A DNA stretch of 64,000 nt from Acidobacteriota bacterium (GTDB lineage: Bacteria; Acidobacteriota; Terriglobia; Acidiferrales; UBA7541). The number at the start of each line of letters is the position of its first letter. Within the stretch, counting starts at the first letter, position 1. The position numbers and the translations under genes are program-made. The stretch is from assembly GCA_003224085.1 (NCBI GenBank), contig QHYK01000053.1, forward strand, positions 1-64,000, in the 5' to 3' direction. Shown piece after piece: positions 48,925 through 64,000 of the stretch. The notes under the pieces were generated by a model that was given only the letters and a program-made list of their open reading frames with translations, searched no databases and was not told the DNA's origin.

Positions 48925-50184
48925 TTAAGGCACAGGATGTGGGTTCAGACGGCCACGTGCACCCACAGCGATCAGAGACATCTGTTCCAAGTCGGGATAA
49001 TGCCCTTCTGCGTCTGGCTTTCGTTCAACGGAGGGAATCTGCTGAAGCGTCGTCTGCGCCGGCAAGATTCCGGTGAAATATTTTCTGTAGACCTTTGCAA
49101 AAAGCGGGCTGTCCGATAAGTCGTCCAGGTAAATGGTCGCCGAGACGACCTGATCGAAACTCAGATCCGCCTCTTCCAAGTTGTCGAGCAGGTTGCGCAT
49201 CGTCTGACGGGTCTGGTCGGTCGTCGTGGCCGCATAAACGCCGCCATTAGGCCCCGGAAGGAATCCGCTCTTGGCTGAACAATACAGCGTGTCGCCAGCA
49301 AAAACACAGGGGCTGGCAGTAGGGCTCGGCGGCATATTCTTCGGCCGGATAGCGTGTCGCCGGGTTAGATCGCGCACCGCCACGCCGGTATAAGCGATGT
49401 GCCCGCCTTGCGGCAAACTGGAAACTTCCATCGTAGCCCGTGCGGGAGTATTCCCAAATTCAAAGCGCCGAGCATAGTGCTGATTCATGATGCGCAGGGG
49501 GACTTCGGAAGTCAGGTAAGGATTCACAAAAACCATGTGGCCCATAGTGAGACCGGCAGCCTGAAGCACAGAATTCATGCGGTCGAGCGCCAGATTCACC
49601 TGAGCGGCAGGGTCTTCCGGAACAGCCCCCGTAGAAGGATCGCTGCCCGGCATGGTGGAAACAAACAAACGATCGTAGGTCAGCATTCCCGAACAGTAGC
49701 CCTTGGTCGAAGGGGTATTCGGCTCGGACACTGGCTGCTTTCCCTGAAGATCCCGAACCGCGACAGCATTGATTTGTACTTCTTCCTCTTGAGGCAGCCG
49801 GGCAACGCCAAGCACTGCACGTGCAGGAGGGCCCTCAGGAAAATAGTCGGCGAAGACATGGTTCAACTCGAGGTACTGATTCATGTTTCGAAGGTAGACC
49901 TGAACGTAAACAACATGAGCCATGGTGAGGTCTGCTGCCCGGACCACGCTGTTTACGTTATCGAGAGCCTGTCGGACTTGGTCCGCGAAAGTTGTGGGAG
50001 TGCTGCCGTCCAGACGGAAAGGTCCCTGGCCGGAAACATATACGTAATCTCCCGCGTCGATTCCCGGCGGTCCTAGCGCAACGTTCGCAGCGGGTGTGTG
50101 CGGGGGAATGACCGCTCGAATCTGACCTTGTGCGCCGGACGGAAAGGAAAGCACCGAGGCGGCCAGGAGAAACAGGAATCTCAC
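48925..50184 (-). CDS. Secreted protein with three tandem RidA domains
   Basis: 419 residues: signal peptide (ends near GAQGQ), then three YjgF/YER057c/UK114 domains at about 24-150, 160-280 and 288-412. Domain 1 has VYVSGQGP and PARAVLGVARLP (Arg about 122); domain 2 has LFVSTMPG and PARATMEVSSLP (Arg about 249); domain 3 has LYCSAKSG but PAQTTLQQIPS, with Gln about 377 in place of the substrate-carboxylate Arg. Canonical RidA proteins are homotrimers that hydrolyse reactive enamines/imines at subunit interfaces; one chain here could form a whole trimer. Its start overlaps the SelA-like gene stop by 4 bp, so the two are coupled. Confidence 0.85.
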   Translation of the reverse strand: MRFLFLLAASVLSFPSGAQGQIRAVIPPHTPAANVALGPPGIDAGDYVYVSGQGPFRLDGSTPTTFADQVRQALDNVNSVVRAADLTMAHVVYVQVYLRNMNQYLELNHVFADYFPEGPPARAVLGVARLPQEEEVQINAVAVRDLQGKQPVSEPNTPSTKGYCSGMLTYDRLFVSTMPGSDPSTGAVPEDPAAQVNLALDRMNSVLQAAGLTMGHMVFVNPYLTSEVPLRIMNQHYARRFEFGNTPARATMEVSSLPQGGHIAYTGVAVRDLTRRHAIRPKNMPPSPTASPCVFAGDTLYCSAKSGFLPGPNGGVYAATTTDQTRQTMRNLLDNLEEADLSFDQVVSATIYLDDLSDSPLFAKVYRKYFTGILPAQTTLQQIPSVERKPDAEGHYPDLEQMSLIAVGARGRLNPHPVP

Positions 50185-51473
50185 GCGGGCCTTCCTTTAC
50201 GTGCTGAGCTTAGGATTGTTCGCAGCCGCTGCCCCACGATCATTTCTTCCCCCGGCTGAATGGTCATCGAAACCAGCTCGATGTGATTTTGTTCCTTGAG
50301 CTCCTTTGGGTTTGGCTTTTCCACGCCCTCGCGCACGGCAGTTACCATGCTCGGATTGTCTACCCCAAGCACTTCGATGACGGGATCGGCCTCGCGGAGC
50401 TTTTCTACGCAGTCCGTGATAGGAAAACCCCAGGCTTTTTGGTCCCAAGACACCCGCAAAGTGGGATAGCGATTCCCATCGTCGGGAATGTAGATTTCCG
50501 TGCTCACGCCCGGAACGGTCTCGACCAGTTTTGCGATCCGATCCACGCGCGCGTGCCACTCCTCGTAAAGTTTCTTGGGGTCCGTTTTCAGCCAGGTTTC
50601 AATGGCCGTAAGGCAACCAATGACCTCTTCTTTCCCCACTTTCATGGGTCGGCAAACGGCGCCCTCGAAGGGGCAGGAATTACGCAGGGCCGCTTCAATC
50701 AAATCCCCGCGGCCAAGCAGCACGCCGCTACACTGGGGGCCGCGCAGGCCCTTGCCGCCGGAAAAAGTGTACAAGTCGAGCTTCATCTTGGCGTATAGCT
50801 TGATATTTTCGATGGGCGGAATTCCGGCGGCATCGTCCAGCAAGAGAGGGACATTATGCTCTTTGGCGATGGACGCTTCCCGTTCGAGTTCATCGCCGAG
50901 ATCGGTGGTGTAAATCATTGCGGTGTCGGCATGGATGGCGTTGGCAATCTCATCTGGCTTTTCGACAAGGATAAGTTTTGCGCCGGCGAGCCGGATGGCG
51001 CTGTCAAACGCGCTTCGTCCGCCAACCATAATCACTTCATGCTTCAACCCTGTGGTGTCCGGAAGCTGCCAGATTTTTTGGGGATCGTTGCCAGCCATAC
51101 AAGCCGCCGTGGCTGCCGCCATTGCGCCGGCTGCTCCCGAAGTGATAATGCCTGACTCTGCGCCGGTCAACTGTGCAAGCCTTCGTCCCGCTGCGCGTTG
51201 CAAGTCCACCAGGTTCACAAAATACCGGCCGGCTTCGGCTTCCGCGTCGAGCACTTCCGGAAACTGCAGCGAGCCGCTCAAATAGGTCCATGTTCCACGG
51301 CAATTGATCACCGTCTTGACACCCAGGCGGCGGTATACATTTCCGCGCGGGTCAAGCCCCATGGCAGCAGCGGACTTCTCATAGAGCTGTTGAGCGGCAA
51401 TCTGCGCCAGCAGCGGCGAGGCCGCCAGCACTTTCATGAATCCGCGGCGGTTGGATTGGTGTGAAAAAGGCAT
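50181..51473 (-). CDS. Tat-exported SelA-like PLP-dependent enzyme
   Basis: 430 residues. NRRGFMKVLAASPLLAQIAAQ is a twin-arginine-type signal. The fold-type I PLP core resembles SelA/DgaE (D-glucosaminate-6-phosphate ammonia-lyase) proteins: TVINCRGTWTYLSGS, SGAAGAMAAATAACMAGND, LLLDDAAGIPP and the Schiff-base Lys about 241 in TFSGGKGLRGPQCSG. It is very unlikely to be selenocysteine synthase, because it is exported and paired with RidA. Alpha,beta-elimination or deamination of an amino-sugar acid would give the enamine/imine that RidA hydrolyses (inference). A paralogue is at 59348. Confidence 0.82.
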   Translation of the reverse strand: MPFSHQSNRRGFMKVLAASPLLAQIAAQQLYEKSAAAMGLDPRGNVYRRLGVKTVINCRGTWTYLSGSLQFPEVLDAEAEAGRYFVNLVDLQRAAGRRLAQLTGAESGIITSGAAGAMAAATAACMAGNDPQKIWQLPDTTGLKHEVIMVGGRSAFDSAIRLAGAKLILVEKPDEIANAIHADTAMIYTTDLGDELEREASIAKEHNVPLLLDDAAGIPPIENIKLYAKMKLDLYTFSGGKGLRGPQCSGVLLGRGDLIEAALRNSCPFEGAVCRPMKVGKEEVIGCLTAIETWLKTDPKKLYEEWHARVDRIAKLVETVPGVSTEIYIPDDGNRYPTLRVSWDQKAWGFPITDCVEKLREADPVIEVLGVDNPSMVTAVREGVEKPNPKELKEQNHIELVSMTIQPGEEMIVGQRLRTILSSARKGRPA

Positions 51474-51497
51474 GTGCTTTCTCCTGCAAGATTCCTG

Positions 51498-52310
51498 TCA
51501 TCGTGTAAAAACCAAAGTGCCAAAGTGCTCGGGAACGTGGTTGGGGTCGCGGTTGACGACACACGTGGGCTGCCAGCACAGGAAGCGGCGCTGGGGATCC
51601 GCCCCTAGCCCATCGATGCGATAGAGGTTGACGCGCCACTGCATGCCCGCGGCCACCTTTTTCTCGCTCACGGAATGCAAGGGCACACGAGCCGCAGCAT
51701 ACCAGGTGTGGTTCTTTTCGTCGATTCGGCCTTGCCGCTCCCAGCCGGAATCCCAGTTGGCGTCATAACTGTCGCGGTTCCGGTCGATCGCCAGATCGAC
51801 CCAGTCTCCGGTTGGCGCGATCTCGAACTCGCGATAAACATTGATGTTTGTCCAATCGTCGCCCAAAAAAAACTCAACCACGTCGCGGTCCCAAAGCTTA
51901 AGGCGGTCCTTGCTGCTATCCGGCGGCAGCCAAAGATTCAGTTCGTAATAAGGTGAAATAAACAGCAGATACAGGTCGGTGTCGGTCCAAAATGCGCGCA
52001 CCTCGGTTCTGAGTTTGGGATAATCGATCTGATGGGTGCAGTCTTTTTCCATCCAGGTGGACGATGCGTGCGACCAGGCCGGAGAATGAGGATCCGTGTT
52101 CAGCACTGGAGATTGCCGGACGTATGGAATGGAAAAAGAAGCTCCCGGCGGCGAAAATTCGCAAACCTTGGGGGCCGTAGCTGCCGGTGCCGACGGCGCG
52201 TCCTGCCCAAAGAAGCTTCCAGGTGCGGAAAATCCTAATCCGCATGCGCTCCCAAGAAGGGCAGCTCCCAACGCCACGATCAGAAAAATCAAAACTCTCA
52301 GGGAATACAC
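51498..52310 (-). CDS. Secreted CBM9-like carbohydrate-binding protein
   Basis: 270 residues from GTG 52310, two bases after the TPR gene's stop; the frame is open further upstream only inside that gene. A hydrophobic signal ends at LLGSACG, a possible weak lipobox. The CBM9/DOMON-like sandwich has FWTDTDLYLLFISPYYE, LWDRDVVEFFLGD, EFEIAPTGDWVDLAID and WYAAARVPL. Related to the protein at 23123 in motif order but divergent. It lies in a minus-strand operon between a TPR protein and the SelA-like enzyme. Confidence 0.8.
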   Translation of the reverse strand: MYSLRVLIFLIVALGAALLGSACGLGFSAPGSFFGQDAPSAPAATAPKVCEFSPPGASFSIPYVRQSPVLNTDPHSPAWSHASSTWMEKDCTHQIDYPKLRTEVRAFWTDTDLYLLFISPYYELNLWLPPDSSKDRLKLWDRDVVEFFLGDDWTNINVYREFEIAPTGDWVDLAIDRNRDSYDANWDSGWERQGRIDEKNHTWYAAARVPLHSVSEKKVAAGMQWRVNLYRIDGLGADPQRRFLCWQPTCVVNRDPNHVPEHFGTLVFTR

Positions 52311-52312
52311 GG

Positions 52313-53938
52313 CTACGGGCGAGACGCGTTTCTTAGTTCCGGCGAAATCTCGAAAGCTCGCTCGAATTCGGCGCGCGACTCTGCCTCCTTTCCTTGCCCA
52401 TGAAGGGCCAGGGCGAGATTGTAGTGCGCTTCCGCATAGAGCGGCTTCAAGCGCACGGCCTCGGCAAATTCCAACTGCGCAGTGCTGAAATCGCCCGCTT
52501 GGAGACGCACCCACCCAAGATTGTTATGAGCCTCCGCAAAATTCGGATCGCGGCGCACAAGCTCGCGGAAGACGTTTGTGGCGCCGGCCGCATCGTTGTT
52601 CTGGCTGAGTACCAAGCCCAATTGGATGCGTGCATCAGTGTAGTTGGGATCGAGACTGATCGCTTCCTTCAGCTCTCGAATGGCTTCGTCCCGTCGCGCT
52701 GATTGTGCCAGCGCAAGGCCGAAGTTGTAATGCGCCTCCGCCAAGTCCGGGTCGGACATGACCGCCTGGTGGAACTCCTCGAGCCCACGAGCGTGATCAC
52801 CCTGCCGCCAGCACAGCAACCCCAGGCTCGAGTGGACTTGCGCATAATCGGGCTTGAGCTCAAGCGCCTTCTGGTAGTTCGCCATAGCTTGTGAAAGTTC
52901 CCCTTTACGCTCCCAGGTGACGCCCAGGTAGTAATAGCCAGTTGGCAAGTCAGGGCTTTGCTCGATGGACTTTTGAAAAAGTGCCTGCGCGGCATCGAGC
53001 TCCTGCTTTTTGAGCGCTTCCACGCCCTGGAGGATGAGAAGCTTGGCCTGCGCCAAGCGCGCGCGAAACTCGTGCAACGCATTCAACTCATCCAGTTCCT
53101 TATGAGCGCCAGCAACGTCTCCTTGCTTGCTCAGGGCCATACCCAGGTTGTAGTGTGCTGCCTCGAAATCGGGTTTCCGTTCTATCGCCCGGCGAAAAGC
53201 AGCGATTGCGCCGGAGGTGTCTCCGCCGGCCTTTAACTCTTTTCCGAGATTCCATTGCGCCTCGGGATCCCCAGGATCGATTTCGACGGATTTGCGAAAG
53301 TGCAAGAGTGCGCCTTCATGATGGCCCTGGCGGCGCAAGGTCACCCCCAACAACATGTGGGCCCGCGCGAGCCGTGGATTGAGGCGCAGAGCGTCGCGGA
53401 ATTGAACCGCAGCGGCGTCCAGCTTGCCGAGCTGTTCTTCCACGGTTCCCAGCTCGAAGTGCGCGTCTGCCGCCGCTTTTAACGCCACGGCATGCTTTAA
53501 TTCACTTTCTGCCGCAGAAAGGTCGCTTTGCTCGGCGTAAACGCGCGCGAGAAGGCGGTGCGCTGCCGCATTCTTTGGATCCAGCTCAACGGCGGTGCGG
53601 AGCTCTTTCTGGGCAGTCGCCAAATCGTGGAGGTCGTACCAAGTCGCGCCCAGCCCGTAGTGCGCATCGGCCCATTTCGGTTTGAGGCGCAGCACGGCCT
53701 CGAACTCTTCGACCGCCTGTCTTGCCTCACCCTTGTATTTTAGCGCCAGCGCCAGATTGTAGTGAGTGAGTGCGTCGTTAGGTTCGAGGTCCAGAGCTTT
53801 ATGGTAAGTTGCAATGGCCTCATCCCACGACTTTGCACGAGAGAACGCAACCGCCTGTTTGCGGTAACTCTCGGCATTCTGCCCTAAAAGAGGAGATGCC
53901 AACAAGAGTCCGAGAACGAATCGAAGCACCATCCCCAA
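52313..53938 (-). CDS. Secreted TPR-repeat protein
   Basis: 541 residues: signal peptide (MGMVLRFVLGLLLASPLLGQ) and then about fourteen tetratricopeptide repeats with the usual A-x-Y-N-L-G-A and P-x-A spacing (THYNLALALKYKG, DAHYGLGATWYDL, EAHYNLALALHGQ). No catalytic domain. It is first in the probable operon TPR - CBM9 - SelA-like - triple RidA (gaps 2 bp, 24 bp, then a 4-bp overlap) and may scaffold the exported enzymes. TPR proteins are also common general Acidobacteriota surface proteins. Confidence 0.83.
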   Translation of the reverse strand: MGMVLRFVLGLLLASPLLGQNAESYRKQAVAFSRAKSWDEAIATYHKALDLEPNDALTHYNLALALKYKGEARQAVEEFEAVLRLKPKWADAHYGLGATWYDLHDLATAQKELRTAVELDPKNAAAHRLLARVYAEQSDLSAAESELKHAVALKAAADAHFELGTVEEQLGKLDAAAVQFRDALRLNPRLARAHMLLGVTLRRQGHHEGALLHFRKSVEIDPGDPEAQWNLGKELKAGGDTSGAIAAFRRAIERKPDFEAAHYNLGMALSKQGDVAGAHKELDELNALHEFRARLAQAKLLILQGVEALKKQELDAAQALFQKSIEQSPDLPTGYYYLGVTWERKGELSQAMANYQKALELKPDYAQVHSSLGLLCWRQGDHARGLEEFHQAVMSDPDLAEAHYNFGLALAQSARRDEAIRELKEAISLDPNYTDARIQLGLVLSQNNDAAGATNVFRELVRRDPNFAEAHNNLGWVRLQAGDFSTAQLEFAEAVRLKPLYAEAHYNLALALHGQGKEAESRAEFERAFEISPELRNASRP

Positions 53939-54092
53939 AGCCTACCAGAGCGAACTGTGCCGTTCCAAAGAAATGAACCTAATTATAAGAAGGCGGCTCA
54001 CACCAGCAAGGTATTCTTTGAATGTACGATCCAAGATCTAATGCGTTGGAAGGGGGGCGAAACCCTCCGAGTCTCGCACCCCCATTCTCGGA

Positions 54093-57000
54093 TTACCAAT
54101 AGAACTTCGCACTGAGCTGGCCGATGCGCGGAGGCTGCGCATTCGTTACAATTCCGAAGGTCCCGGTGTCGTTGATATTGCCTCCAGGATTCATGAATTG
54201 CGCATGGTTGAAGATGTTGAAAAATTCGATGCGCAAATCAACCGCCATTTGCTCTCGAATGACAGTTCGCTTCAGTATGCCGAAGTCTGTGTTGTTGAAT
54301 CCAGGGCCGTGGAAGAAGCGCCGGTTGGCAGTGCCAAAGGTTCCTGGAGTGGTGTTGGAAGCAAATGCGCTCGGCAGGAAGTAGCACCCCGTCCCGTCGC
54401 TGGTAGGACAGTTCGGATTCGATTTGCGTGGATTCACAATCACCACCGGACCAACGCGATCGGGCATATCTGTGGGTGGGCTGCCAACCAGCGACACATC
54501 ATCGTCGGGTTCGTTCATCAGGATCGGAAAACCAGTTGAGAAGCGCGTGATCCCCTGCACCTGCCAGCCTTGGGTCAAGCGTTTCGGCGCACCTTTGAAA
54601 GCTCGGTCGAACGGCATGGACCAAACATAACTGGCCACGAAATTGTGAGTTACGTCGGTCGACGACAGCCCCCGGCTCAACTTGGGATTCGCGAAGTTCA
54701 CCAGATCGCCGAAAGCCGAAGAATCGTCCAAGGCTTTCGAGAAGGTGTAGGCCGCCAGGAATGTTATGTCGTTGGCTTTGCGCTCCACGGTGATTTCCCC
54801 GGCGTGAAAGATCGAATTGGCGGTGGTCAGCGTATTGGTATTCCCGGAACCATAGCAAACCTGTGCCCCGCCGGGGCAGAAATTGGGATTTAAAATCTGG
54901 TGCCTGGTGCTGTAAACGCACCCTGGGAGAGGTGTTGGACTGGGCGTGTCACAGGGGACGGTAGCTGTTGGCAGCTGGAAGACGTCGTTCTCATTCCCGG
55001 GTCCGCAGCCGGGAACTCCTCCTGCGGTCACATCGATCGCCCCTTGCGCGGTCAGTTGCTGGCACAGAGCCGGGTCGCCGGGGTTGACTTCGTTCTGAGT
55101 GATCAGGTGATGGCCGCCAGTCCCGACGTAAGCCAGCGTCAACACTGTGGATTTGTCCAACTGCCGCTGGATCGAGAGATTGAAGTGCTCGCCGTACGGC
55201 AGCCTGTTGCGAGTGTTGTAGCCCGGGAAAAAGTTGAACGGCTCGTAAATCGAAAAATCCAGTGTCTTGTTCGAAGGGGAGCCAGGGATTGGCGCAGTGA
55301 ACGGAAAACGTTGTCCCAGCGACTGCCCACTCGCTCGAATCCGAAACGGTTCTTCAAACAGGACCGATACGGGGGACGTCCAATACAAGCCAAACGGGGC
55401 GTCGGCCACTTCGTAAAACAGGTCCAGGTCTTCGACCGAAGTGTAGTAGAGGCCGAAAGCCGCCCGGATACTGGTTTTGCCCGGACCGCCAAAGATCTTG
55501 CCCAATGCTCCGTCGCTAAATCCGGGTGAATAGGCAAGCCCCAGGCGCGGAGCGAAATTGTTGTATCTCGTTGGAGACAGCGTCTTCGGGATGCCCGGGT
55601 CGCCCGGAAATACCAAACCTTGGGGAGAAAGTGGAAACACGACAGACTGCTCTCCGGACACAAAGGTCTGAATCTTTCCCTGCGTGTCATACCACGGCAT
55701 GCTGACTTCCCAGCGCAAGCCGAGGTTCAGCGTAAAATTGGGTTTTACCTTCCAAGCATCCTGCACGAAGGCACCGCCGTAGCGCGAGCGCGAATCAAGA
55801 AGCTGCAAAGCAGCCTGGGTGTAAGGGCCATTGGAACCGATGGTGGAGGTCGCGCCCAGGAGGAAGTCCGCCACATCGCTTCCCGTCACCGTGCCATCAA
55901 AAACGAATTGCCCGTTTGGGCTGGCATAGTTGCGTTCGTTCACTTGCAGGTAGCGAAATTCCCCTCCAAACTTCCATGTATGTCTTCCCTTGGTTTTCGA
56001 AAACACGTCGGTAGCCATATAGGTGGTGTTGGGTTGGAACGTATTGAGCGTGGGCACTCCAATGTTCAACCCAATGCTTTTAAGGGTGATTTGAGGCACA
56101 TACTGTTTATATCCAGGGAGCGGGACAATGCCTAGGGTGCCGGCGCCCGTTATGAATCCGAGCGACGAAAGGCTCGCAAAACTCCCGGCTGGGTTGTCCT
56201 TGTGCAGCGCAGTCCGGAAAAAGCTTATCCGGGCTTCGTTCACTGCCGTTCCTCCCAGAGTCTTGGCGTTGCTCATCACGAACTGTTGCGCTCGCGAAGG
56301 CGTTGCCGCGGGAAAGCCTGGCACACTGGCGAAGCCAGCCAACGCGTTCTGAACGTTGGTATTATCCAAATGGTAATACCATGACCAGTTTCCCGTTTTT
56401 TGATTGTTGAAATCTATCCGTTCGCCGTATTTATCGTCGTTGACAACGTTTCTCCCGCTGTTATTCGAATAGTTGTTCGAATTTCCTGAAACCGTCGGGG
56501 CCGGAATATAGGAAAGGATGGCCGTAGCTGGTGCCGCCCAAGCTGACTGCGGGAGCGCGCCGTTAGGAAACACGCATTGCGCATTGTTGGTACAGAAGGC
56601 TAGATGGTATCCGAGTGGGCTGCTGTCCGGCACCTGAACTTCGGCATAGGACTCTCCCTGTGTGACGGCGTAACCTAGACGCGTCGACAAAACTTGCGCC
56701 CAGTACGCACCGTCGACAGTCGTTGGCACCGGATTTCCACTGGAATCGGTCGTTTCGAATGACCCCAGATCAAAATTGCCTTGCCGTTCGTCGGCCGTCG
56801 GTACCGTAACGGAGCCGGTTTCCGCCCCCTGCACCTGTCGCGTCCCTTGATAGTCCGAGAAAAAGAACAGATGGTCTTTCCATACCGGCCCGCCTGCCGT
56901 GTAACCGAACTGATTGCGCCGCAACTCGGTCTTTCCAAGTCCAAGTTTATTCGCGAAGTAATTGTTGGCATCCAGCTTTTCGTTGCGCAGAAACTCGAAG

Positions 57001-57788
57001 ACGTCGCCGTGAAAGCCGTTGGTGCCGGATTTCGTGATGGCGTTCATCACCGCGCCGCTGAATTTCCCGTACTCGGCATCGAAACTATTGGTGATGAGGC
57101 GAAATTCCTCCACCGAGTCCAGATTCGGTACCAAACCCGCGCCGAGGTTTCGCCCCTCACTGACATCGCCACCGTTCACCAAGAAGGCGTTGGCCGTTTC
57201 GCGCTGGCCATTGACGGAGATGTTGCCTGCATTCAAGATGCCCGAAACCGGACGGTCCTGCTGGATCGCTTGGTTGGAGTTGCTAGGGGCAACGCCCGCC
57301 TGTAGACCCAGAAGGTCAAGGTAGCTGCGCCCATTCAAGGGCAGCGCCAGCATCTTCTTGGAATCGATGACGTCGCCCAGCTGTGTGTTGTCCGTTTGCA
57401 CTTGGACGGCATTTGCCGTGATTTCCACCGTTTCCGTTACCGTGCCGAGACCAAGAGTGACATCGAAGTGCAGCTGGTCGTTCACTTTCACTTCGATATT
57501 CGTTTCGGTGAAGGTTCGGAATCCAGGGGCAGTGACGGTGAGCTTGTACTTCCCGGCCGGCAGAGCCAGGATGTGGTAGGAACCCTCTGCGCTCGAAGTG
57601 GTTTCCTGGCTCAAGTTGGTTTCCACATTTGTGGCAACAACTTTCGCCCCTGCAACCACCGCCTGCGAGCGGTCATGCACCACGCCAAGAATCGATCCCG
57701 TCACGTCTGCCCGCAACACGGCAGCACTGGCTAGTGCTATTGAAACGATTGAAATCAGGAAGAAAAGACGAAAACAGCCCTTGCTCAT
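54093..57788 (-). CDS. TonB-dependent receptor, Oar-like
   Basis: About 1231 residues from ATG 57788 (GGGGGTG upstream). The frame is open to 57959, but the signal peptide SKGCFRLFFLISIVSIALASA argues for this start. CarboxypepD_reg-like domain about 30-115 (GSILGVVHDRSQAVVAGAKVV), plug with MLALPLNGRSYLDLLGLQAGV and FLVNGGDVSEGRNLGAG, barrel ending in IGQLSAKFYW. Likely outer-membrane importer for the substrate of the downstream minus-strand genes or the adjacent MFS/SelA/RidA set. The 153-bp gap to the TPR gene shows no clear terminator. Confidence 0.87.
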   Translation of the reverse strand: MSKGCFRLFFLISIVSIALASAAVLRADVTGSILGVVHDRSQAVVAGAKVVATNVETNLSQETTSSAEGSYHILALPAGKYKLTVTAPGFRTFTETNIEVKVNDQLHFDVTLGLGTVTETVEITANAVQVQTDNTQLGDVIDSKKMLALPLNGRSYLDLLGLQAGVAPSNSNQAIQQDRPVSGILNAGNISVNGQRETANAFLVNGGDVSEGRNLGAGLVPNLDSVEEFRLITNSFDAEYGKFSGAVMNAITKSGTNGFHGDVFEFLRNEKLDANNYFANKLGLGKTELRRNQFGYTAGGPVWKDHLFFFSDYQGTRQVQGAETGSVTVPTADERQGNFDLGSFETTDSSGNPVPTTVDGAYWAQVLSTRLGYAVTQGESYAEVQVPDSSPLGYHLAFCTNNAQCVFPNGALPQSAWAAPATAILSYIPAPTVSGNSNNYSNNSGRNVVNDDKYGERIDFNNQKTGNWSWYYHLDNTNVQNALAGFASVPGFPAATPSRAQQFVMSNAKTLGGTAVNEARISFFRTALHKDNPAGSFASLSSLGFITGAGTLGIVPLPGYKQYVPQITLKSIGLNIGVPTLNTFQPNTTYMATDVFSKTKGRHTWKFGGEFRYLQVNERNYASPNGQFVFDGTVTGSDVADFLLGATSTIGSNGPYTQAALQLLDSRSRYGGAFVQDAWKVKPNFTLNLGLRWEVSMPWYDTQGKIQTFVSGEQSVVFPLSPQGLVFPGDPGIPKTLSPTRYNNFAPRLGLAYSPGFSDGALGKIFGGPGKTSIRAAFGLYYTSVEDLDLFYEVADAPFGLYWTSPVSVLFEEPFRIRASGQSLGQRFPFTAPIPGSPSNKTLDFSIYEPFNFFPGYNTRNRLPYGEHFNLSIQRQLDKSTVLTLAYVGTGGHHLITQNEVNPGDPALCQQLTAQGAIDVTAGGVPGCGPGNENDVFQLPTATVPCDTPSPTPLPGCVYSTRHQILNPNFCPGGAQVCYGSGNTNTLTTANSIFHAGEITVERKANDITFLAAYTFSKALDDSSAFGDLVNFANPKLSRGLSSTDVTHNFVASYVWSMPFDRAFKGAPKRLTQGWQVQGITRFSTGFPILMNEPDDDVSLVGSPPTDMPDRVGPVVIVNPRKSNPNCPTSDGTGCYFLPSAFASNTTPGTFGTANRRFFHGPGFNNTDFGILKRTVIREQMAVDLRIEFFNIFNHAQFMNPGGNINDTGTFGIVTNAQPPRIGQLSAKFYW

Positions 57789-57988
57789 CCGGCACCCCCA
57801 TTTGGCCCGGAGCTTATTTCGAAGTGCAGTGGAAGTCAAGAGGGCTAAACTTAACTTTACTTTCTTCGAGTGTGGACAACTCCGGCCGGGCGACATCGGC
57901 GCCGCTTCGCCCGAGCTGAAAAGCAGCCAACCGCCGCCCTTCATCGGACGGAAGCTCAAGAATGCTTGGTTCAGATCAACGGGTTAGG

Positions 57989-59281
57989 TCAACGAATTTC
58001 CCGACCAAGAGGCAGGGTAAGTCCTGGGTCGACCAAAAGCCAGGCGACCGCGCCGAGCCCGGCGATGGCCGCCGCGACGTAAAATCCCGTGTTCCACCCG
58101 AATCGGTCGGCCAGGAAAGGAGTCAAGGACACCGTAATCATTCCCCCGATTTGGTTTGCCATATTCATGAAGCCGGAGAGCGAGCCGGAGGATTTTCCGC
58201 CGAGATCCGCGGAAACCGCCCAGAACGAGCTTTGCGAAAGATAGAGAGAGCCTGCGCCACCGGCCAGAACAAAGCTCGCGACTCGTGCATCGTGGACCGC
58301 GGATCCAAAAACAAGGAAAGTCGCGGTAAGGATGAAGCCGAGGACAGCGATGCTGCAGCGGCCGAGCCGTGAGCCCAGATGTTTGGTCACGGTGTCGCTG
58401 ATGGCTCCGCCAAATGGGCTGCAGACCGCCATCGCTAGAAAAGGCAGCGTTGCGTAGAGAGCGCTGGTCTTCAGGTCCAGGCCGCGCACTCTGGCGAGAT
58501 AGAGATAGAACCAGCTAAAGAAAACCCAGGCCACGTAGCCGAAGCAAAAATACCCGAGCGACAGAATCCAGACATTGCGGCTCGACAGGATGCTGGACCA
58601 TGTGAGCAGGTTTCCTTCGTTTGAAGCTGCCGATTTCGGAATCCCCTGCTGAATGAGTGTGAGCTCGTTTGACGACAAAGAAGGATGCTCATCAGGCGTA
58701 TCGCGTGCGGCCAGAAACCATACGGCACCGACGGCAAGCCCGATTAACGCGCTCATCCAGAAGGACGAGCGCCACCCGTAGCGCAGCATAACGAAGGAGA
58801 TGAGCGGAGGAGTGATCCCCGCGCCGATGCCGACACCGGCGAAAATGATCCCGTTAGCCACGCCGCGTTCCTGACTAGGAATCCAACGGGCGACAAACTG
58901 GTTGGAAGCGGGATATACGATGGCCTCGCCGGCACCGAGGAGAAAGCGAATCACCACGAGCACCAACACGGTGTTGCCCAGGCTGTGAGAGATGGCTGCT
59001 GTCAAGGCGGTGAAGACGCCCCACCACAGGACTCCAAGAGCGAGCATACGCCTTGGACCAAAGCGATCGGCCAGCCATCCTGCGGGAGTTTGGAAGAGCG
59101 CATACCCGAAGAGAAATGCGCTGAATACAAAGCCGAGGCGGACGTTGCTGATCGCGAACTCCTCGGAGATCTTGGCGCCCGCGATGGAAAGATTCACTCT
59201 GTCGAGAAACGCGACGGCACTCAGGACAAAAAGCAAGAAGACGAGAAACCAGCGTACGTGGCTTGTCGGCGGTGAAGTCAT
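57989..59281 (-). CDS. MFS transporter, anion:cation symporter (ACS) type
   Basis: 430 residues with twelve predicted membrane helices. ACS hallmarks: AVAFLDRVNLSIAG in helix 1, GWLADRFGPRRML in the 2-3 loop, and FLLGAGEAIVYPASNQFVARWIP in helix 4-5, as in hexuronate, galactonate and glucarate transporters (ExuT/DgoT/GudP type). It probably brings a sugar acid or keto acid into the cytoplasm by proton symport. It follows the SelA-like gene at 59348 by 66 bp on the same strand, linking transport to that enzyme's product. Confidence 0.86.
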   Translation of the reverse strand: MTSPPTSHVRWFLVFLLFVLSAVAFLDRVNLSIAGAKISEEFAISNVRLGFVFSAFLFGYALFQTPAGWLADRFGPRRMLALGVLWWGVFTALTAAISHSLGNTVLVLVVIRFLLGAGEAIVYPASNQFVARWIPSQERGVANGIIFAGVGIGAGITPPLISFVMLRYGWRSSFWMSALIGLAVGAVWFLAARDTPDEHPSLSSNELTLIQQGIPKSAASNEGNLLTWSSILSSRNVWILSLGYFCFGYVAWVFFSWFYLYLARVRGLDLKTSALYATLPFLAMAVCSPFGGAISDTVTKHLGSRLGRCSIAVLGFILTATFLVFGSAVHDARVASFVLAGGAGSLYLSQSSFWAVSADLGGKSSGSLSGFMNMANQIGGMITVSLTPFLADRFGWNTGFYVAAAIAGLGAVAWLLVDPGLTLPLGREIR

Positions 59282-59347
59282 TTACAGATGCTCGAGTCAC
59301 TTTCCAGCATGCCGAACTCGCCGGCCCTCAAATGGCGCGTCTCGCCT

Positions 59348-60607
59348 TCACGCGGTATGGGACTTAAAAAGCTGGACAAGTTGCGCGGCGATGATTTTTT
59401 CTTCGCCGGGTTTCAGCATGAACGAGTTCATGCCCAGGCCGCCTTCCGACGAACCAAGCGCGATGGAGGGCCGGCCGTTTCGCAGCGCGCTGGCGGCGTC
59501 GCGGGGCGATAGAGAAATCTTCCGAGGATCCCAGAAAATGCGCAGGTGCGGGACGTGATTGGCCACGTCGGGAACATTGAAGGAGGTTGCCACTCCAGGA
59601 ACTCGAGTAATTTCCGCGGAAACGGCATCCAAGCGGCGCCACCATTCTTTTTCCTGCGCCGCGTGATCTTCGTTCAAGTAGCACTCCAGGGCTTTAACCA
59701 TGCCCACGATTTCCTCCTTGCCAACTTTCATGCCGCGGCCAAGCGTATCTTCATGAGGGCTGTTGTTGAGCAGCGCGTTGGCAATAAATTCCTTTTTTCC
59801 AATGAGCAGCCCAGCGCATTGCGGTCCGCGGATAGCTTTGCCGCCGCTGAAAGCGATCAAGTCGTAGCCCATGTTGGCGTAGTCCCACAGATGGGAGACT
59901 GGCGGCGTGTCCGCGGCGGCGTCGTTGAAGGCGGGAATCTGGTTTTCATGCGCGAGCTTCACCCACTCGTCGACTTTGATCTGGCCGGCGGCGTTGGCAA
60001 AATTCGAAAAATGCATCATGGCCGTTTTGGAATTGATGGCCCGCTTCACGTCTTCGCGCGATTCCACTTCGATCAGTTTGACGCCCGTAGCACGGAGTTG
60101 ATGATCAAAACCGTTTCGATGCGATTTCTGAATAATGACCTCGGATTTCATGCCCGTGAGGTCCGGGAGTTGTTCGATGAACTTGGGATTATTGCCGGTG
60201 AGGATTCCTGCGAGGCCCGACTGCATGCCAGCGGCTGCGCCACATGTGACGACCGCATCGTAGTCGGGCGGAAGCTTCAGGAGATCCGCAATGCGCCCTC
60301 CGGCAGCCTGTTCCAATTCCACGATGGAAACAAAATGTTGCGCCGCAAGAGCCATAACGGTTTCCACTTCCGGACGGGGGAGTGAGCCGCCCAAATAAGT
60401 CATGGTCCCTTGCCCGTTGATCACGGTGGTGACTCCCAGCTCTTCGTAAACGTTTCCCGTGGCGCCAAAGCCAGTGAGTCTTTCCTGCGCGGGTGCCGGA
60501 ATGACCGCTGGCAAGCCGAATACTCTGCGCGCGTTGAGCATCATGCCGGCAAGCACGCCGGCGCTTCCGAGGAAGTGTCGCCGGTTCCGGAAATTCTTGA
60601 TGGTCAT
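59348..60607 (-). CDS. Tat-exported SelA-like PLP-dependent enzyme (second copy)
   Basis: About 419 residues from ATG 60607 (GAGAGG upstream); 60649 is a possible longer start. NRRHFLGSAGVLAGMML is a twin-arginine signal. SelA/DgaE-like core: TVINGQGTMTYLGGSLPRPE, VTCGAAAGMQSGLAG, FNDAAADTPP, and Schiff-base Lys about 257 in AFSGGKAIRGPQCAG, followed by GRGMKVGKEEIVGM. Same motif order as the enzyme at 50181 but clearly diverged, so an old paralogue. RidA lies 11 bp upstream and the ACS transporter downstream. Confidence 0.82.
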   Translation of the reverse strand: MTIKNFRNRRHFLGSAGVLAGMMLNARRVFGLPAVIPAPAQERLTGFGATGNVYEELGVTTVINGQGTMTYLGGSLPRPEVETVMALAAQHFVSIVELEQAAGGRIADLLKLPPDYDAVVTCGAAAGMQSGLAGILTGNNPKFIEQLPDLTGMKSEVIIQKSHRNGFDHQLRATGVKLIEVESREDVKRAINSKTAMMHFSNFANAAGQIKVDEWVKLAHENQIPAFNDAAADTPPVSHLWDYANMGYDLIAFSGGKAIRGPQCAGLLIGKKEFIANALLNNSPHEDTLGRGMKVGKEEIVGMVKALECYLNEDHAAQEKEWWRRLDAVSAEITRVPGVATSFNVPDVANHVPHLRIFWDPRKISLSPRDAASALRNGRPSIALGSSEGGLGMNSFMLKPGEEKIIAAQLVQLFKSHTA

Positions 60608-60618
60608 GGTGACGCCTC

Positions 60619-61125
60619 TCATCCCTTCCGCGTTACCACGGCAATGCAATTGATTTCCACCAGCGAATTCCCGGGAAGTGCGGCAACGGCTACCGTGGTT
60701 CGCGCGGGACCGCCATTGGGGAAATAAGTTTTGAAGACTTTATTCATGCCCTCGTAGTCGTCGATCTTGGTCAGATAAACGGTGAGCTGAAGAATGCTGT
60801 CCAGGGTGCCGCCGCCGGTCTCGACCAGAGTCTTGACGTTGTCCATCACCTTTTTGGTGTGGGTCTCGATGTCCATGGCGAACTGCCCTTCGGGATCATG
60901 CGAATGGGCCCCTTGGCCGGCGATGTACATGGTGTCGTTGTGTATGACCAGTGGGGTGATGAACCCGGTTCCGGCAGGCTTGCCTTCGTAATTGAGTTTC
61001 TTCACGCCGGTTGCAGCTTGCGGAGAGGCCGCCGCGCTGACCCCAGTTCCAGAAACGGCAAGCCCCGGAATGAGGGCGGCAAGCCTGGTTGCGAAACCAC
61101 GCCGCGAAGTCAGAAATGAAAGCAT
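60619..61125 (-). CDS. Tat-exported RidA-family protein
   Basis: 168 residues from ATG 61125 with a strong AGGAGGAAC site. SRRGFATRLAALIPGLAVSG is a twin-arginine-type signal. The single RidA domain has MYIAGQGAHS, LTVYLTKIDDYEGMN, PARTTVAVAALP (substrate-binding Arg) and VEINCIAVV (conserved Glu), so the canonical imine-deaminase residues are present. It would form a homotrimer and hydrolyse enamines/imines made by the SelA-like enzyme encoded 11 bp downstream. Exported RidA proteins are uncommon. Confidence 0.85.
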   Translation of the reverse strand: MLSFLTSRRGFATRLAALIPGLAVSGTGVSAAASPQAATGVKKLNYEGKPAGTGFITPLVIHNDTMYIAGQGAHSHDPEGQFAMDIETHTKKVMDNVKTLVETGGGTLDSILQLTVYLTKIDDYEGMNKVFKTYFPNGGPARTTVAVAALPGNSLVEINCIAVVTRKG

Positions 61126-61180
61126 TGTTCCTCCTTTTTGATTGGTCCTCCAGGGTGGTGCAAAGCCATGCCTGCGTTCG

Positions 61181-62860
61181 TTACGGCAAGGCAAAACTGA
61201 AAATGTCGCTCCCCGCCGCTATCGCCACATATTGTTTCGAGTGGATAGCGTAGCTCATTGGGGATGCGGCGATGTTCTGGCCGGTAGGGAAGTGCCAAAG
61301 CGGTTTGCCCGTCTGGGCGTCGACGGCTTCGAAGGATTCCGCGTCGTCACCGAAAAAGACAAGTCCGCCGGCAGTGGTCATCGTTCCGCCTGCGGAATGG
61401 CCCCTGCCTGCTTGAACATAACGCCATGCGGGCTTGTCGGCGTCGAGAGAATAGGCCAATAAGATTTTCTGGTTGTGGTCGCCTTCGCTGTGACGGGCCC
61501 CCGTGGAATAGTACGTTTGGCCGGGCTTGAATGTTTGGGGTTTCAAAACCAAAACGCTGCAAGACTCAAGGGCCATGAAATAAAACAGGGAAGTATGGGG
61601 ATTGTAAGAAGGCGCGTGCCAATTTGTGGCCCCGACCATGCCGGGGCAAACGCGTGTGCCTTCCGCGCTAGGCTTGATTGCAGTCCGGATAGGGCGACCT
61701 TTGTAGTCAATTCCGGAAGCCCAATTCAGTTTCTCGGCGAAGCGCGCGGCGGAAAGAAATTGGCCGTTGGTGCGATCAAGCACGTAGAGAAAGCCGTTCC
61801 GGTTTGCTTCGACGATGAGTTTCCGTGGCTGTCCCCGGAACGTTGCGTCGACAAGGACCGGGGTCTCGGTTGCGTCATAATCAAAAAGGTCGTGCGGCGT
61901 GAACTGGAAGTACCATTTCAGTTTGCCGGTGTCGGGATCCAGTGCCAGCAGGCAATCCGTGTAAAGATCATCGCCAGGGCGAGGTGCACCGTCAAAATCG
62001 GGCGCGGGATTGCTCGTGCCCCAGAAGATGGTGTTGAGTTCGGGATCAAAAGTGCCAGGCATCCAAGTCGTGCCGCCGCCTAGTTTGTAGCTCTCGCCTG
62101 GCCAGCTGGAGGCACCGAATTCACCAGGAGCGGGAATGGTCCAAAAACGCCACGCCTGCTTGCCGGTCTCGGCGTCATAAGCAGCGACAAAGCCGCGCAC
62201 GCCGTCGTCACCTCCGGAAGTTCCTACGATGACTTTGTTTTGAACTACAAGAGGAGCGCTGGTTGCGCCGTAATTGGGGTTGCCGTCGGTGTAGGCGACA
62301 TCCCAGAGAAGATGTCCAGAGCGGGCGTCGAGACAAACCAGATGCGCGTTGTCCGTTTCCATGTAGATGCGTGAGCGCCAGATGCCGACGCCGCGATTGT
62401 GGTGTTGCGAGGCGTCGTCGATGAGTCCTTCGGTGATGGGACGCGAGTAACGCCAGAGCGCTCGTCCCGTTTGGGCGTCGAGGGCGAATGCGTCGTTGGC
62501 TGCGGTAACGAACATGATTCCGTCCACGACAACCGGAGTAACTTCGAGGTTGCTTGAGTTCGATGCGTGAAAGACCCACTGGGCGCGAAGCTGCGCCACA
62601 TTACCACCATGGATTTCGGGAAGAGCACTGTAGCGGCGGCCCGTGTAGTCTCCGTTGTAAGACAGCCAGTTTGCGCTGCTGGGCCTTGAAAGTAATTGGG
62701 CTGGGTGCACATCAATGGTCGTGGCCAGGGAAGTCATCGGGCCGTCCTGGGACGGCCAAGGCACCGGCTTCAGAACCAGCAGCGCGAGTACGAGGAGAAT
62801 GGTTGCCATCGAGGCATCGCTTGAGTTTTGTTGGCTCAGGGACAATCGGAATTTCGTCAC
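61181..62860 (-). CDS. PQQ-dependent alcohol-dehydrogenase-like quinoprotein
   Basis: 559 residues from GTG 62860; ATG 62809 directly before the hydrophobic signal (ATILLVLALLVLKP) is an alternative. Quinoprotein propeller: NWLSYNGDYTGRRYSAL start, TIPAPGEFGASSWPG and GATNWHAPSYNP typical of the methanol/ethanol family, and catalytic Asp about 327 in HDLFDYD. The second Asp two residues later is the position used by lanthanide-dependent XoxF/PedH enzymes. No vicinal Cys pair and no fused cytochrome. It would oxidise an alcohol or sugar in the periplasm. Lies 55 bp upstream of the RidA gene in the same direction. Confidence 0.82.
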   Translation of the reverse strand: MTKFRLSLSQQNSSDASMATILLVLALLVLKPVPWPSQDGPMTSLATTIDVHPAQLLSRPSSANWLSYNGDYTGRRYSALPEIHGGNVAQLRAQWVFHASNSSNLEVTPVVVDGIMFVTAANDAFALDAQTGRALWRYSRPITEGLIDDASQHHNRGVGIWRSRIYMETDNAHLVCLDARSGHLLWDVAYTDGNPNYGATSAPLVVQNKVIVGTSGGDDGVRGFVAAYDAETGKQAWRFWTIPAPGEFGASSWPGESYKLGGGTTWMPGTFDPELNTIFWGTSNPAPDFDGAPRPGDDLYTDCLLALDPDTGKLKWYFQFTPHDLFDYDATETPVLVDATFRGQPRKLIVEANRNGFLYVLDRTNGQFLSAARFAEKLNWASGIDYKGRPIRTAIKPSAEGTRVCPGMVGATNWHAPSYNPHTSLFYFMALESCSVLVLKPQTFKPGQTYYSTGARHSEGDHNQKILLAYSLDADKPAWRYVQAGRGHSAGGTMTTAGGLVFFGDDAESFEAVDAQTGKPLWHFPTGQNIAASPMSYAIHSKQYVAIAAGSDIFSFALP

Positions 62861-62926
62861 AATGAATGCGACTCCAGGGAATGAAACCTCATATACTACA
62901 ACTCGGCGGCGGGAGGCCAGAATTTT

Positions 62927-63703
62927 TCACAGCCGCCCAAACTTGGCCACCGCTTCTTCAATCGATTTAAGCTTCTCGATGTAGGCGTACATCGAGTGCT
63001 CCTTGAAGTCCATTTCCTGCGCCAGCTTCAGAATCTGTGGGGCCATGCCCTTGGGCACAACCACCACGCCATCGGAATCTGCGGTGATGATATCTCCTGG
63101 GTTTACGGGCACGCCGTCGCAAGTCACGGGGATATTCGATCCGGCAAACCGATAGTGGCTGACGGAGGTGGAAGGAACGACACCAAGCGCGTAAACTGGG
63201 AAGCCAATCTTTTGTAGATAGGCAGTGTCTCTCACTCCGCCGTCTATGACTGCGCCGGAGAAATTCCTAGCGGCCATGGCCGTGCCCATCAATCCACCGA
63301 TGCCTGCGATGTCCTTCCCGTCTTCGACGACCATGACGTAGACGGAATTGGGACCGCCGGTGTCAATAGCGTGCAGCATTCCCTTAAGGGCGTCCGGATC
63401 ATGATTCGCCTCTTTTTTCAACGAAACTGTGAGCGCATAGCCGGCGAAACGCGTCGTGAATAGCGGCCGCATGCGATGCGTCATGTACATCTTCTTGTCG
63501 GCAATCTGTTCTAGAGCGTCAGACACCGAGGCAACTTCCACGTGTCGAAAACCATCGAGGAGAGAAGCCTCGTCTTTTGGTTCCGCGGACTGGTTTTGTT
63601 TTGCCGAAATCTTCGAAGCCTGTGCCAGAACCAACAGGCCTGGAACGACAGCCAGACCGAGGAACAAAGCGAGGTGACGCCGAGAAAGCAGAAGACTCCG
63701 CAT
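62927..63703 (-). CDS. Exported RraA-family protein
   Basis: 258 residues. The N-terminus SRRHLALFLGLAVVPGLLVLAQA can act as a Tat or Sec signal. RraA core: ASVSDALEQI, GIGGLMGTAMAARNFSGAVIDGGVRD (active-site loop with Arg-Asp), then VNPGDIITADSDGVVVVPKGM. It ends MYAYIEKLKSIEEAVAKFGRL, the same tail left as a remnant at 47698. Likely a keto-acid aldolase or decarboxylase of the HMG-aldolase type. First gene of the minus-strand series RraA - PQQ dehydrogenase - RidA - SelA-like - MFS. Confidence 0.83.
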   Translation of the reverse strand: MRSLLLSRRHLALFLGLAVVPGLLVLAQASKISAKQNQSAEPKDEASLLDGFRHVEVASVSDALEQIADKKMYMTHRMRPLFTTRFAGYALTVSLKKEANHDPDALKGMLHAIDTGGPNSVYVMVVEDGKDIAGIGGLMGTAMAARNFSGAVIDGGVRDTAYLQKIGFPVYALGVVPSTSVSHYRFAGSNIPVTCDGVPVNPGDIITADSDGVVVVPKGMAPQILKLAQEMDFKEHSMYAYIEKLKSIEEAVAKFGRL

Positions 63704-63824
63704 AGACCCTCCTTGCAGTTAAGACGCGCGCACTTTAGCATCTTTGGACGCGCGGGGTGAAGTCTTTTGCTGGCTTTACGCGTGTGAGAATCGTTCTAGC
63801 AAATTGAATCGATTGAGACCGGCC

Positions 63825-64000
63825 ATGCCTAAGCAACGACGGAAGCGGTCTGTCTCAGCGGAGGCCTGGATTCCGCCGTTGACGGCAGTATTTTGCCTTC
63901 TGGCGATCGCTGCCATCGCGGTTAGCGGGCAGAAGCGGCCAGGTGCGACCGCGTCCAAAACGAGCGCCGCCGGTCTCCTCGAAGCCAAGAGGACTTTTGA
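63825..64000 (+). CDS. Partial gene, N-terminus of a secreted or membrane-anchored protein
   Basis: ATG 63825 opens a frame that stays open to the right edge (58 codons). It encodes a basic N-terminus (PKQRRKRS), a hydrophobic stretch (LTAVFCLLAIAAIAVSG) and a polar continuation, as in a signal anchor or signal peptide. No domain is visible, and the ribosome site is weak (TTGAGACC). It is divergent from the RraA gene. Could be the start of another secreted enzyme. Confidence 0.5.
   Translation, partial: MPKQRRKRSVSAEAWIPPLTAVFCLLAIAAIAVSGQKRPGATASKTSAAGLLEAKRTF

Follow-up and report, generated by a model that had tools for sequence, protein, structure and literature searches.

D-glucosaminate-6-phosphate ammonia-lyase (DGL or DgaE, EC 4.3.1.29) is a SelA-like enzyme of fold type I that uses pyridoxal 5'-phosphate (PLP); in a docking model three of its arginines (Arg301, Arg332 and Arg346) lie near the 6-phosphate, and His163 is the proton donor that protonates the enamine. 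The H163A variant has a similar kcat and spills the enamine into solution, in connection with which its authors point to RidA (PMC9529869). This study analysed a stretch of 64,000 nucleotides from an Acidobacteriota bacterium (assembly GCA_003224085.1, contig QHYK01000053.1, positions 1 to 64,000; hereafter the window), which encodes two DGL-like proteins, SelA1 and SelA2, each with an N-terminus of the twin-arginine translocation (Tat) type and each beside a protein of the RidA family (Table 1). Both share with DGL the fold and the PLP lysine, and the carboxylate-side arginine is kept in SelA1 and is a lysine in SelA2; unlike DGL, they have neither the phosphate arginines nor the His162/His163 pair, they fall far under the NCBIfam cut-offs, and they add a Tat-type extension and a RidA partner. 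The initial annotation of the window had reported a Tat-type SelA-like protein beside a secreted RidA twice over, and intact open reading frames (ORFs), family matches and four export-type N-termini bear this out, with the refinement that the first RidA is a three-domain protein (3x-RidA, or RidA3) with a Sec-type N-terminus and the second (RidA1) a single-domain protein of the Tat type. The sequences suggest an exported-type variant of the known DGL-like ammonia-lyase kind, accompanied by an exported-type RidA.

Several described systems resemble this arrangement in part. In marine Pseudoalteromonas, a glucosaminate (GlcN1A) deaminase and a RidA gene are both required for growth on N-acetylglucosaminate (GlcNAc1A); this Ong pathway, with OngB as deacetylase, OngC as GlcN1A deaminase and OngD as RidA in a cluster that includes GH20 and deacetylase genes, shares with the proposed system a PLP deaminase of an unphosphorylated amino-sugar acid and a RidA gene, whereas OngC belongs to fold type III and has, like OngB, a predicted cytoplasmic location (PMC9537276). 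A haloarchaeal N-acetylglucosamine pathway predicted in 2025 combines a CE14 deacetylase, a glucose dehydrogenase, a DGL homologue and a 'RutC', for which the paper postulates an unidentified kinase step and names RutC a repressor; like the window it joins a SelA-like protein to a Rid-family gene, but with no export signal and with glucose 1-dehydrogenase in place of a quinoprotein (PMC12343721). Cap15 (PDB 8T7J), the top fold match of SelA1 and SelA2, is a PLP monooxygenase-decarboxylase with a sugar-derived beta-hydroxy-alpha-amino acid as substrate (PMC6384614, PMC7497351). It differs from both in being a biosynthetic oxygenase that retains the phosphate arginines. PvdN of Pseudomonas is exported by Tat, and we know of no RidA partner for either PvdN or Cap15. 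PvdN is likewise a PLP enzyme of the periplasm, of another family and with a role in pyoverdine (PMC7497351).

Fold, active site and export signals

Profile matches place both proteins near DGL at scores below the cut-offs for named enzymes. On the DgaE profile TIGR01437 (cut-off 385.3) SelA1 reached 154 bits and SelA2 186 bits, and on the DgaE/DGL equivalog NF047797 (cut-off 600) 138 and 148 bits. SelA2 exceeded the cut-off of the broader family PF03841 (46.8 versus 22.8 bits) and scored 50.7 bits on the SelA profile TIGR00474 (cut-off 267.9), for which SelA1 had no listed match. The genome holds a separate full-length PF03841 match of 462 bits; this protein and the sub-cut-off TIGR00474 result rule out a true selenocysteine synthase. 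The AlphaFold models (predicted local distance difference test scores, pLDDT, of 89.6 for SelA1 and 82.9 for SelA2) matched Cap15 (8t7j) best, with Z 38.0, a root-mean-square deviation of 2.1 and 345 residues aligned for SelA1, and Z 38.6, 1.9 and 348 residues for SelA2. DGL (7lc0) followed at Z 37.0 and 37.3, with 28% identity over 350 and 353 residues, and the next matches, SelA and threonine aldolases, lay at Z of about 24 to 25.

The PLP-binding lysine, whose absence from a structure-based alignment had been named beforehand as counting against the idea, was found in all of the 149 relatives aligned and in both window proteins, within a fold that matches DGL and Cap15; a PLP site in the Tat-type SelA proteins is well supported by these alignments. 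Relatives were divided by the residues of one loop into SelA1-type (S1) and SelA2-type (S2) sequences. At the carboxylate-side position, Arg226 in DGL numbering, arginine is found in 94/94 S1 and arginine or lysine in 52/55 S2 sequences, the residue being Arg255 in SelA1 and a lysine in SelA2. The phosphate-side positions 301, 332 and 346 hold Thr, Leu and Met in SelA1 and His, Gly and Phe in SelA2, whereas Cap15, the structure of which was solved with phosphate and the activity of which is phosphate-dependent, retains all three arginines. This loss fits a periplasmic site because a periplasmic substrate would be unphosphorylated. In place of His162-His163, SelA1 has Gly-Asp and SelA2 Ala-Asn, in a loop whose alignment is uncertain; since neither has a DGL-type proton-donor histidine, both would be expected to release the enamine.

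Export signals were compared in two samples of relatives. The named collection was capped at the best 80 of 500 confirmed relatives, which gave 79 distinct loci, and therefore leans to close relatives; the class sample consists of up to 30 best-match loci with short flanks and 40 regions picked by hand, and is thus not random. L001, L002, L003, L096, ORFs under 300 amino acids and sequences with identical last 250 residues were left out of the twin-arginine and RidA counts, and the rows of the window and of L005 stand outside them. Aligned twin arginines were found in 144/144 complete N-termini (named collection, 79/79 S1 and 10/10 S2; class sample, 12/12 S1 and 43/43 S2), the 79/79 replacing a first-pass regular-expression count of 72 of 77 full-length SelA1-type ORFs. 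They are absent from the five extension-less sequences compared (DGL, Cap15, two haloarchaeal and one Sinorhizobium), DGL and Cap15 being represented by their aligned stretches only. The first core tyrosine is preceded by 46 residues in SelA1 and 53 in SelA2, compared with 4 in the DGL stretch and 6 in the two haloarchaeal relatives. A cytoplasmic location, the outcome that the initial annotation had set beforehand as contrary to its proposal, is disfavoured by this distribution and by a TatC match over cut-off in the genome; the export signals of the SelA and RidA proteins are well supported, and export itself would be expected.

The RidA assignments are supported by PF01042 (cut-off 27.3), which 3x-RidA matched with 180.4 bits and RidA1 with 84.3 bits; on TIGR00004 (cut-off 106.25) 3x-RidA passed with 188.2 bits and RidA1 stayed below with 86.6. 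The three domains of 3x-RidA span residues 26-152, 153-279 and 280-418, and the position that we take to be that of the catalytic arginine is Arg in RidA1 and in domains 1 and 2 of 3x-RidA, and Gln in domain 3. This arginine is essential for imine hydrolysis by RidA, which classically handles 2-aminoacrylate (PMC4433059). Three tandem RidA domains, presumed to form a covalent trimer, were described by Niehaus et al. in 2015 (PMC4433059), which rules out the 3x-RidA as a new architecture. The window protein differs from those described in its export-type N-terminus and in the exported-type PLP protein that adjoins it; 'signal peptide' and 'periplasm' are absent from the main text of that paper. 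Among relatives, a hydrophobic Sec-like start was found in 55/55 of the 3x-RidAs adjoining SelA, and an RR/RK motif in 15/19 of the adjoining single-domain RidA ORFs, a count that includes fragments of broken-up 3x-RidA ORFs. The cytosolic RidA is probably a separate protein, because the genome has five further RidA-family matches on contigs other than that of the window; the strongest of them falls in an open frame of 127 residues. Elsewhere (L217:5561-8532), a 3x-RidA stands beside a Tat-type protein of 572 amino acids in a respiratory-looking gene run, with no SelA in the stretch, which makes this a further setting for an exported-type RidA.

Linkage to RidA and recurrent neighbours

In the named collection, a same-strand RidA gene lies within 300 bp of 44 of the 75 judgeable S1 and 9 of the 10 S2 genes; the first figure was 39/70 in a first pass with phmmer and reached 44/75 with a hidden Markov model and a looser length rule. 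RidA matches numbered 66, in 50 of the 79 SelA loci (1.20 Mb), against none in 40 control stretches (0.80 Mb in total), which were placed at positions fixed beforehand in 21 genomes taken from the same list of the class as the class sample. The class sample gave 5/12 S1 and 5/40 S2, which, with the 44/75, rules out a universal pairing. Loci without RidA include many from Bryobacterales and some from Acidobacteriaceae, and some S2 relatives have other neighbours, such as an EF_0837-type deacetylase; since so many Tat-type SelA genes have no linked RidA, the latter may be dispensable or encoded elsewhere in many relatives. The initial annotation had made its proposal depend on a pairing conserved in other genomes. 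The pairing is recurrent, also in two genomes outside the class, and is clade-specific and not obligatory.

Across 297 genomes of the phylum, the SelA alignment found matches at E<=1e-60 in 32 genomes and a 3x-RidA search found 7 matches at E<=1e-30, the own genome included. Three of the seven fetched 3x-RidA loci adjoin a Tat-type SelA (two in G406 and one in G353), and four have none adjacent. A 90-row tree was built from a random draw of 26 S1 rows (the window SelA1 was not among them), every S2 row and extra rows. On it the RidA label requires 15 changes, of which well-supported branches force no fewer than 13, whereas shuffled labels need 28.4 on average; six extra rows were labelled RidA-linked by hand, and in the two haloarchaeal rows among them RidA lies at a distance of two genes. 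The arrangements of the pair also vary, with a 3x-RidA downstream or upstream of SelA, or a single or double Tat-type RidA upstream. Repeated coupling and uncoupling therefore looks likely. The 85 Tat-group rows stand on one side of a branch opposite DGL, Cap15, the haloarchaeal and the Sinorhizobium proteins (support 96/77, not starred), on a tree that warned of long branches for Sinorhizobium, Cap15 and DGL.

Comparison of the 79 SelA loci with the 40 control stretches additionally revealed a recurrent set of neighbours: pyrroloquinoline quinone (PQQ)-type proteins (40 versus 2), DUF4380/mutarotase-like proteins (32 versus 0), double cupins (30 versus 0), major facilitator superfamily (MFS) transporters of the ACS type (19 versus 0), SMP-30/lactonases (17 versus 0), RraA (13 versus 1) and CBM9-like proteins (13 versus 0). 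NagB-like proteins were weakly enriched (6 versus 0, p=0.046). The p-values come from a binomial model by length that takes no account of relatedness, and are optimistic because related sequences are not independent. The enolase-superfamily (46260) and Gfo/Idh (44875) genes are not supported as conserved members of a pathway, being unenriched (ENO 5 versus 1, p=0.23; Gfo 1 versus 2, p=0.94), and a TonB/Oar linkage was not significant (38 versus 17, p=0.1).

Neighbours in more distant genomes extend this picture. Plasmid pACIX902 of Granulicella tundricola MP5ACTX9 carries a run of RraA, SelA, RidA, a second SelA-like protein, deacetylase, lactonase and BBE oxidase. All of these have export-type N-termini except the BBE protein, in which none was seen; this run (L249, NC_015065.1 25988-41229) is a possible test system. 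Eight haloarchaeal regions were opened by hand from listings of 34 and 28 records. In six of the eight, a PIG-L deacetylase, glucose 1-dehydrogenase, heparinase, PL8 lyase, or GH20 with sulfatase and D-aminoacylase lies near the SelA-like gene, and a Rid gene is annotated in 4/8; the SelA-like proteins have no export extension and appear cytosolic, and the two that were compared (the plasmid relatives L251 and L252) have neither the phosphate arginines nor the histidine pair. Some haloarchaeal SelA-like genes (L262-L267) lie on plasmids, in part beside heparinase, PL8, GH20, PIG-L or D-aminoacylase genes, a hint of amino-sugar polysaccharide use. The Sinorhizobium relative (L250) has a different setting, adjoined by phosphonate/CDP-alcohol genes. 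The initial annotation had read the window as an amino-sugar-acid pathway, and this interpretation is partly supported, by the lactonase, deacetylase, oxidase, NagB-like and GH20 neighbours and by the haloarchaeal contexts. Two matches each to GH20 and to KDPG-type aldolases in the own genome permit such a route but do not show it.

A candidate extracytoplasmic deamination and its alternatives

The reading we favour, at a probability of roughly 0.55, is that SelA1 and SelA2, as members of the SelA/DGL/Cap15 superfamily, act outside the cytoplasm as phosphate-independent ammonia-lyases for free amino-sugar acids and that RidA hydrolyses their enamine. Most economically, we infer a Tat-exported cousin of DGL embedded in an exported oxidative sugar-acid module. 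Both SelA proteins would fold with PLP in the cytoplasm before export by Tat. Their periplasmic reaction would remove first water and then ammonia from a free beta-hydroxy-alpha-amino acid, for which glucosaminate, galactosaminate or another 2-amino-2-deoxy-aldonic acid is the most likely candidate. Lacking the proton-donor histidine of DGL, they would let go of the enamine, which the co-exported RidA, either the pseudo-trimeric 3x-RidA or a Tat-exported single RidA, would convert to a 2-keto-3-deoxy acid. Where the gene set is fuller, the acid could be made by an oxidase of the PQQ (or BBE/FAD) type together with a lactonase, and a deacetylase could free the amino group; cleavage of the keto acid may fall to an aldolase of the RraA type, and import of the product to the MFS protein. 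A complete oxidative amino-sugar pathway outside the Acidobacteriota cytoplasm, with C1 oxidation, lactone hydrolysis, deacetylation, PLP deamination with RidA, and RraA retro-aldol cleavage that would yield ammonia and small keto acids before uptake or phosphorylation, is a bolder and rather doubtful extension.

A number of observations weigh against the favoured reading. L214 and L215, from outside the class, retain an arginine at the 332 position, so loss of the phosphate site is incomplete in some relatives. The His163 position is mostly Asp or Glu in S1 (84/94), which are possible proton donors as well, SelA2 has a histidine nearby on the preceding strand, and the residues of Cap15 in this uncertain loop shifted between two alignments; the His163 argument is thus suggestive and not proof. 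By reading, SelA1 has no clear signal-peptidase site. Many Tat-type SelA genes are unlinked to RidA, among them a third Tat-type paralogue in the own genome (C51). GH20 and deacetylase neighbours (4 versus 0 each, p=0.13, in the 79 loci and 40 controls) are not significant alone, and the case and control genomes of all these comparisons were not clade-matched. The substrate could be a beta-hydroxy amino acid other than a sugar acid, and no enzyme assay or localisation was found for any member of the group.

One alternative is N-acyl-D-amino-acid use, in which an exported deacetylase would free D-amino acids (D-serine, D-threonine, beta-hydroxy-D-aspartate or wall-derived ones), SelA would dehydrate and deaminate them, and RidA would remove the aminoacrylate, its classic substrate (PMC4433059). 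The Ong deaminase also accepts D-serine and D-threonine (PMC9537276), an EF_0837-type deacetylase adjoins the SelA gene of C51, the Granulicella deacetylase lies two genes after RidA, and the deacetylase cluster occurs in 10/41 stretches, with adjacency that is not constant; L214, which encodes a Tat-type RidA and what reads from its N-terminus as a deacetylase, apparently belongs here too. This explanation leaves the lactonase, oxidase, CBM9-like and NagB-like neighbours and the haloarchaeal heparinase, PL8 and GH20 contexts unexplained, and the ten-gene run of the window contains no deacetylase, so that we consider it unlikely, if worth keeping in view. The fold comparison raises a different prospect, since Cap15 scored slightly above DGL (38.0 versus 37.0 for SelA1, 38.6 versus 37.3 for SelA2), its substrate is of the sugar-derived kind, and oxygenase chemistry has been proposed for the periplasmic PvdN (PMC7497351): an oxygenase using O2 and PLP might turn a beta-hydroxy-alpha-amino acid into a carboxamide or other oxidised product, perhaps in modifying a secreted molecule as PvdN does, while RidA clears imine by-products. 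Both SelA proteins lack the phosphate arginines common to Cap15 and DGL, and lactonase, aldolase, transporter and deacetylase neighbours look catabolic and not biosynthetic, which makes such an oxygenase improbable.

Aldol cleavage, racemisation or beta-replacement of an exported substrate, with RidA as general protection for exported PLP enzymes, would agree with threonine aldolases and SelA as the next fold matches and with the many Tat-type SelA genes that have no RidA. The large gap between those matches (Z about 24 to 25) and DGL and Cap15 (Z 37-39), together with the retention of the PLP lysine and, mostly, of the carboxylate arginine, leaves this other chemistry only a slim chance. Least probable is that the twin arginines are not functional signals and that the proteins are not exported, or are inactive membrane-anchored remnants. 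Some members do have a low hydrophobicity score, and the missing cleavage site of SelA1 points the same way, but the evidence to the contrary comprises the twin arginines, present without exception where the N-terminus is complete and located in an extension absent from DGL and the haloarchaeal relatives, the invariant PLP lysine, and export-type N-termini on the partner proteins.

To our knowledge, PLP catalysis and enamine chemistry have mostly been treated as cytoplasmic. If RidA works outside as the favoured deamination would have it, control of reactive enamines extends to the periplasm. The comparison also suggests a rule, that loss of the His163 proton donor goes with a RidA partner, which turns a remark of the DGL paper into a testable prediction, and it offers an alternative reading for the 'RutC' and the postulated kinase step in haloarchaeal chitin clusters. 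Soils contain a large pool of nitrogen in the amino sugars of fungal and bacterial walls, and Acidobacteriota are abundant there; periplasmic deamination, if true, would bear on soil nitrogen release. Among open-licence papers, a scope that does not establish absence from print, none joined RidA with a SelA-like protein or glucosaminate with any two of Acidobacteria, Tat signal and periplasm, and none covered all the aspects sought on chitin oxidation or on PvdN and Tat.

Arrangement of the locus and peripheral genes

All ORFs of the locus are undamaged, with both SelA/RidA pairs on the minus strand (Table 1). Ten collinear minus-strand genes run from 63703 to 48925 in the order RraA2, PQQ-type dehydrogenase, RidA1, SelA2 and MFS transporter, followed by the TonB/Oar-like, tetratricopeptide repeat (TPR)-type, CBM9-like, SelA1 and 3x-RidA genes. 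The SelA1 and 3x-RidA ORFs share a 4 bp overlap, RidA1 and SelA2 are separated by 11 bp, and gaps within the modules are mostly short. About 200 bp lie between the MFS stop and the TonB start, which was placed at the methionine of M-S-K-G-C; two transcription units are therefore likely. The initial annotation had spoken of two independent loci: both pairs are real, but the modules are 8 kb apart on one strand, within the one ten-gene run. Two relatives (L007 and L008) have the gene order of the window, whereas in L009, L010, L011 and L025 the SelA1 module comes first, so the two modules travel together yet can swap. SelA1 and SelA2 are 38-39% identical and their subfamilies form separate clades on the tree (the window SelA1 not being among the sampled rows), so that the pair is no recent duplication.

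Table 1. Features of the SelA/RidA locus and its surroundings, in window positions
Feature	Position	Strand	Description
Enolase-superfamily protein	46260..47621	minus	Tat-type; nearest sugar-acid dehydratases; locus periphery
RraA1	47961..48902	plus	RraA-like; signal-like N-terminus; convergent; among relatives in L007 and L008 only
3x-RidA (RidA3)	48925..50184	minus	Sec-type N-terminus; three tandem RidA domains
SelA1	50181..51473	minus	430 amino acids; Tat-type N-terminus N-R-R-G-F-M-K; fold-type I PLP protein, SelA/DGL/Cap15 superfamily; Schiff-base-type Lys241, carboxylate-type Arg255
CBM9-like protein	51498..52310	minus	Directly before SelA1; signal-like N-terminus; CBM9_2 21.6 bits, below cut-off 25
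TPR-type protein	52313..53938	minus	By reading; kept in the SelA1 module of gp2-type relatives
Oar/TonB-dependent-like outer-membrane protein	54093..57788	minus	Head of the SelA1 module; family by reading
MFS transporter	57989..59281	minus	Nearest ACS/galactonate type; profile matches
SelA2	59348..60607	minus	Tat-type N-terminus N-R-R-H-F-L; SelA/DGL/Cap15 superfamily; Schiff-base-type Lys257
RidA1	60619..61125	minus	Tat-type N-terminus S-R-R-G-F; single RidA domain with Arg
PQQ-type alcohol dehydrogenase-like beta-propeller	61181..62860	minus	Probably exported; profile matches
RraA2	62927..63703	minus	RraA/aldolase family; hydrophobic N-terminus; R-D motif common to 3noj
Di-haem c-type cytochrome (probable)	63744..64000	plus	Probably exported; start of a gene divergent from RraA2 that continues to contig 64703

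A PQQ dehydrogenase and an acid transporter beside the second pair, also noted initially, were recovered in the profile searches. The former passed TIGR03075, the model for PQQ dehydrogenases of the methanol/ethanol type (489.6 bits, cut-off 480.05), and the latter has the D-galactonate transporter subfamily as its best NCBIfam match, below cut-off. The dehydrogenase scored higher on the 'acido-empty-quinoprotein' profile (536.6 bits), yet below that profile's own cut-off of 650. In alignment with 1kv9 it keeps the catalytic-type Asp, lacks the vicinal Cys pair and has Asp for the metal-ligand Glu, the roles of these residues being as we take them. PqqE is encoded in the genome, over cut-off, so the notion that 'empty' means an organism without PQQ is not supported; as TIGR03075 was also passed, the label may not apply here. 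The divergent cytochrome c gene (L004:1745-2704) has two CxxCH motifs by reading of the sequence, and its product is a possible electron acceptor for the quinoprotein. Both RraA proteins exceed the cut-off of 24.5 for PF03737 of the RraA/HMG aldolase family (124.6 and 99.1 bits), and in RraA2 the R-D motif aligned with that of 3noj. An RraA near each pair had been reported; this stands for RraA2, a member of the same run, and less so for the convergent RraA1.

Some further genes were noted. The C51 paralogue (L005:1367-4079) lies beside an Oar-like protein and directly downstream of its deacetylase, which has a signal-like N-terminus. The Gfo/Idh oxidoreductase and the enolase-superfamily protein (44875-47621) are both Tat-type and convergent, with a 4 bp overlap. 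A further PQQ-type protein is encoded at 17642-19522 of the window and a second CBM9-like paralogue at 23123-23917. The contig of relative L010 is labelled Betaproteobacteria and has the same layout as the acidobacterial L011; it is probably mis-binned.

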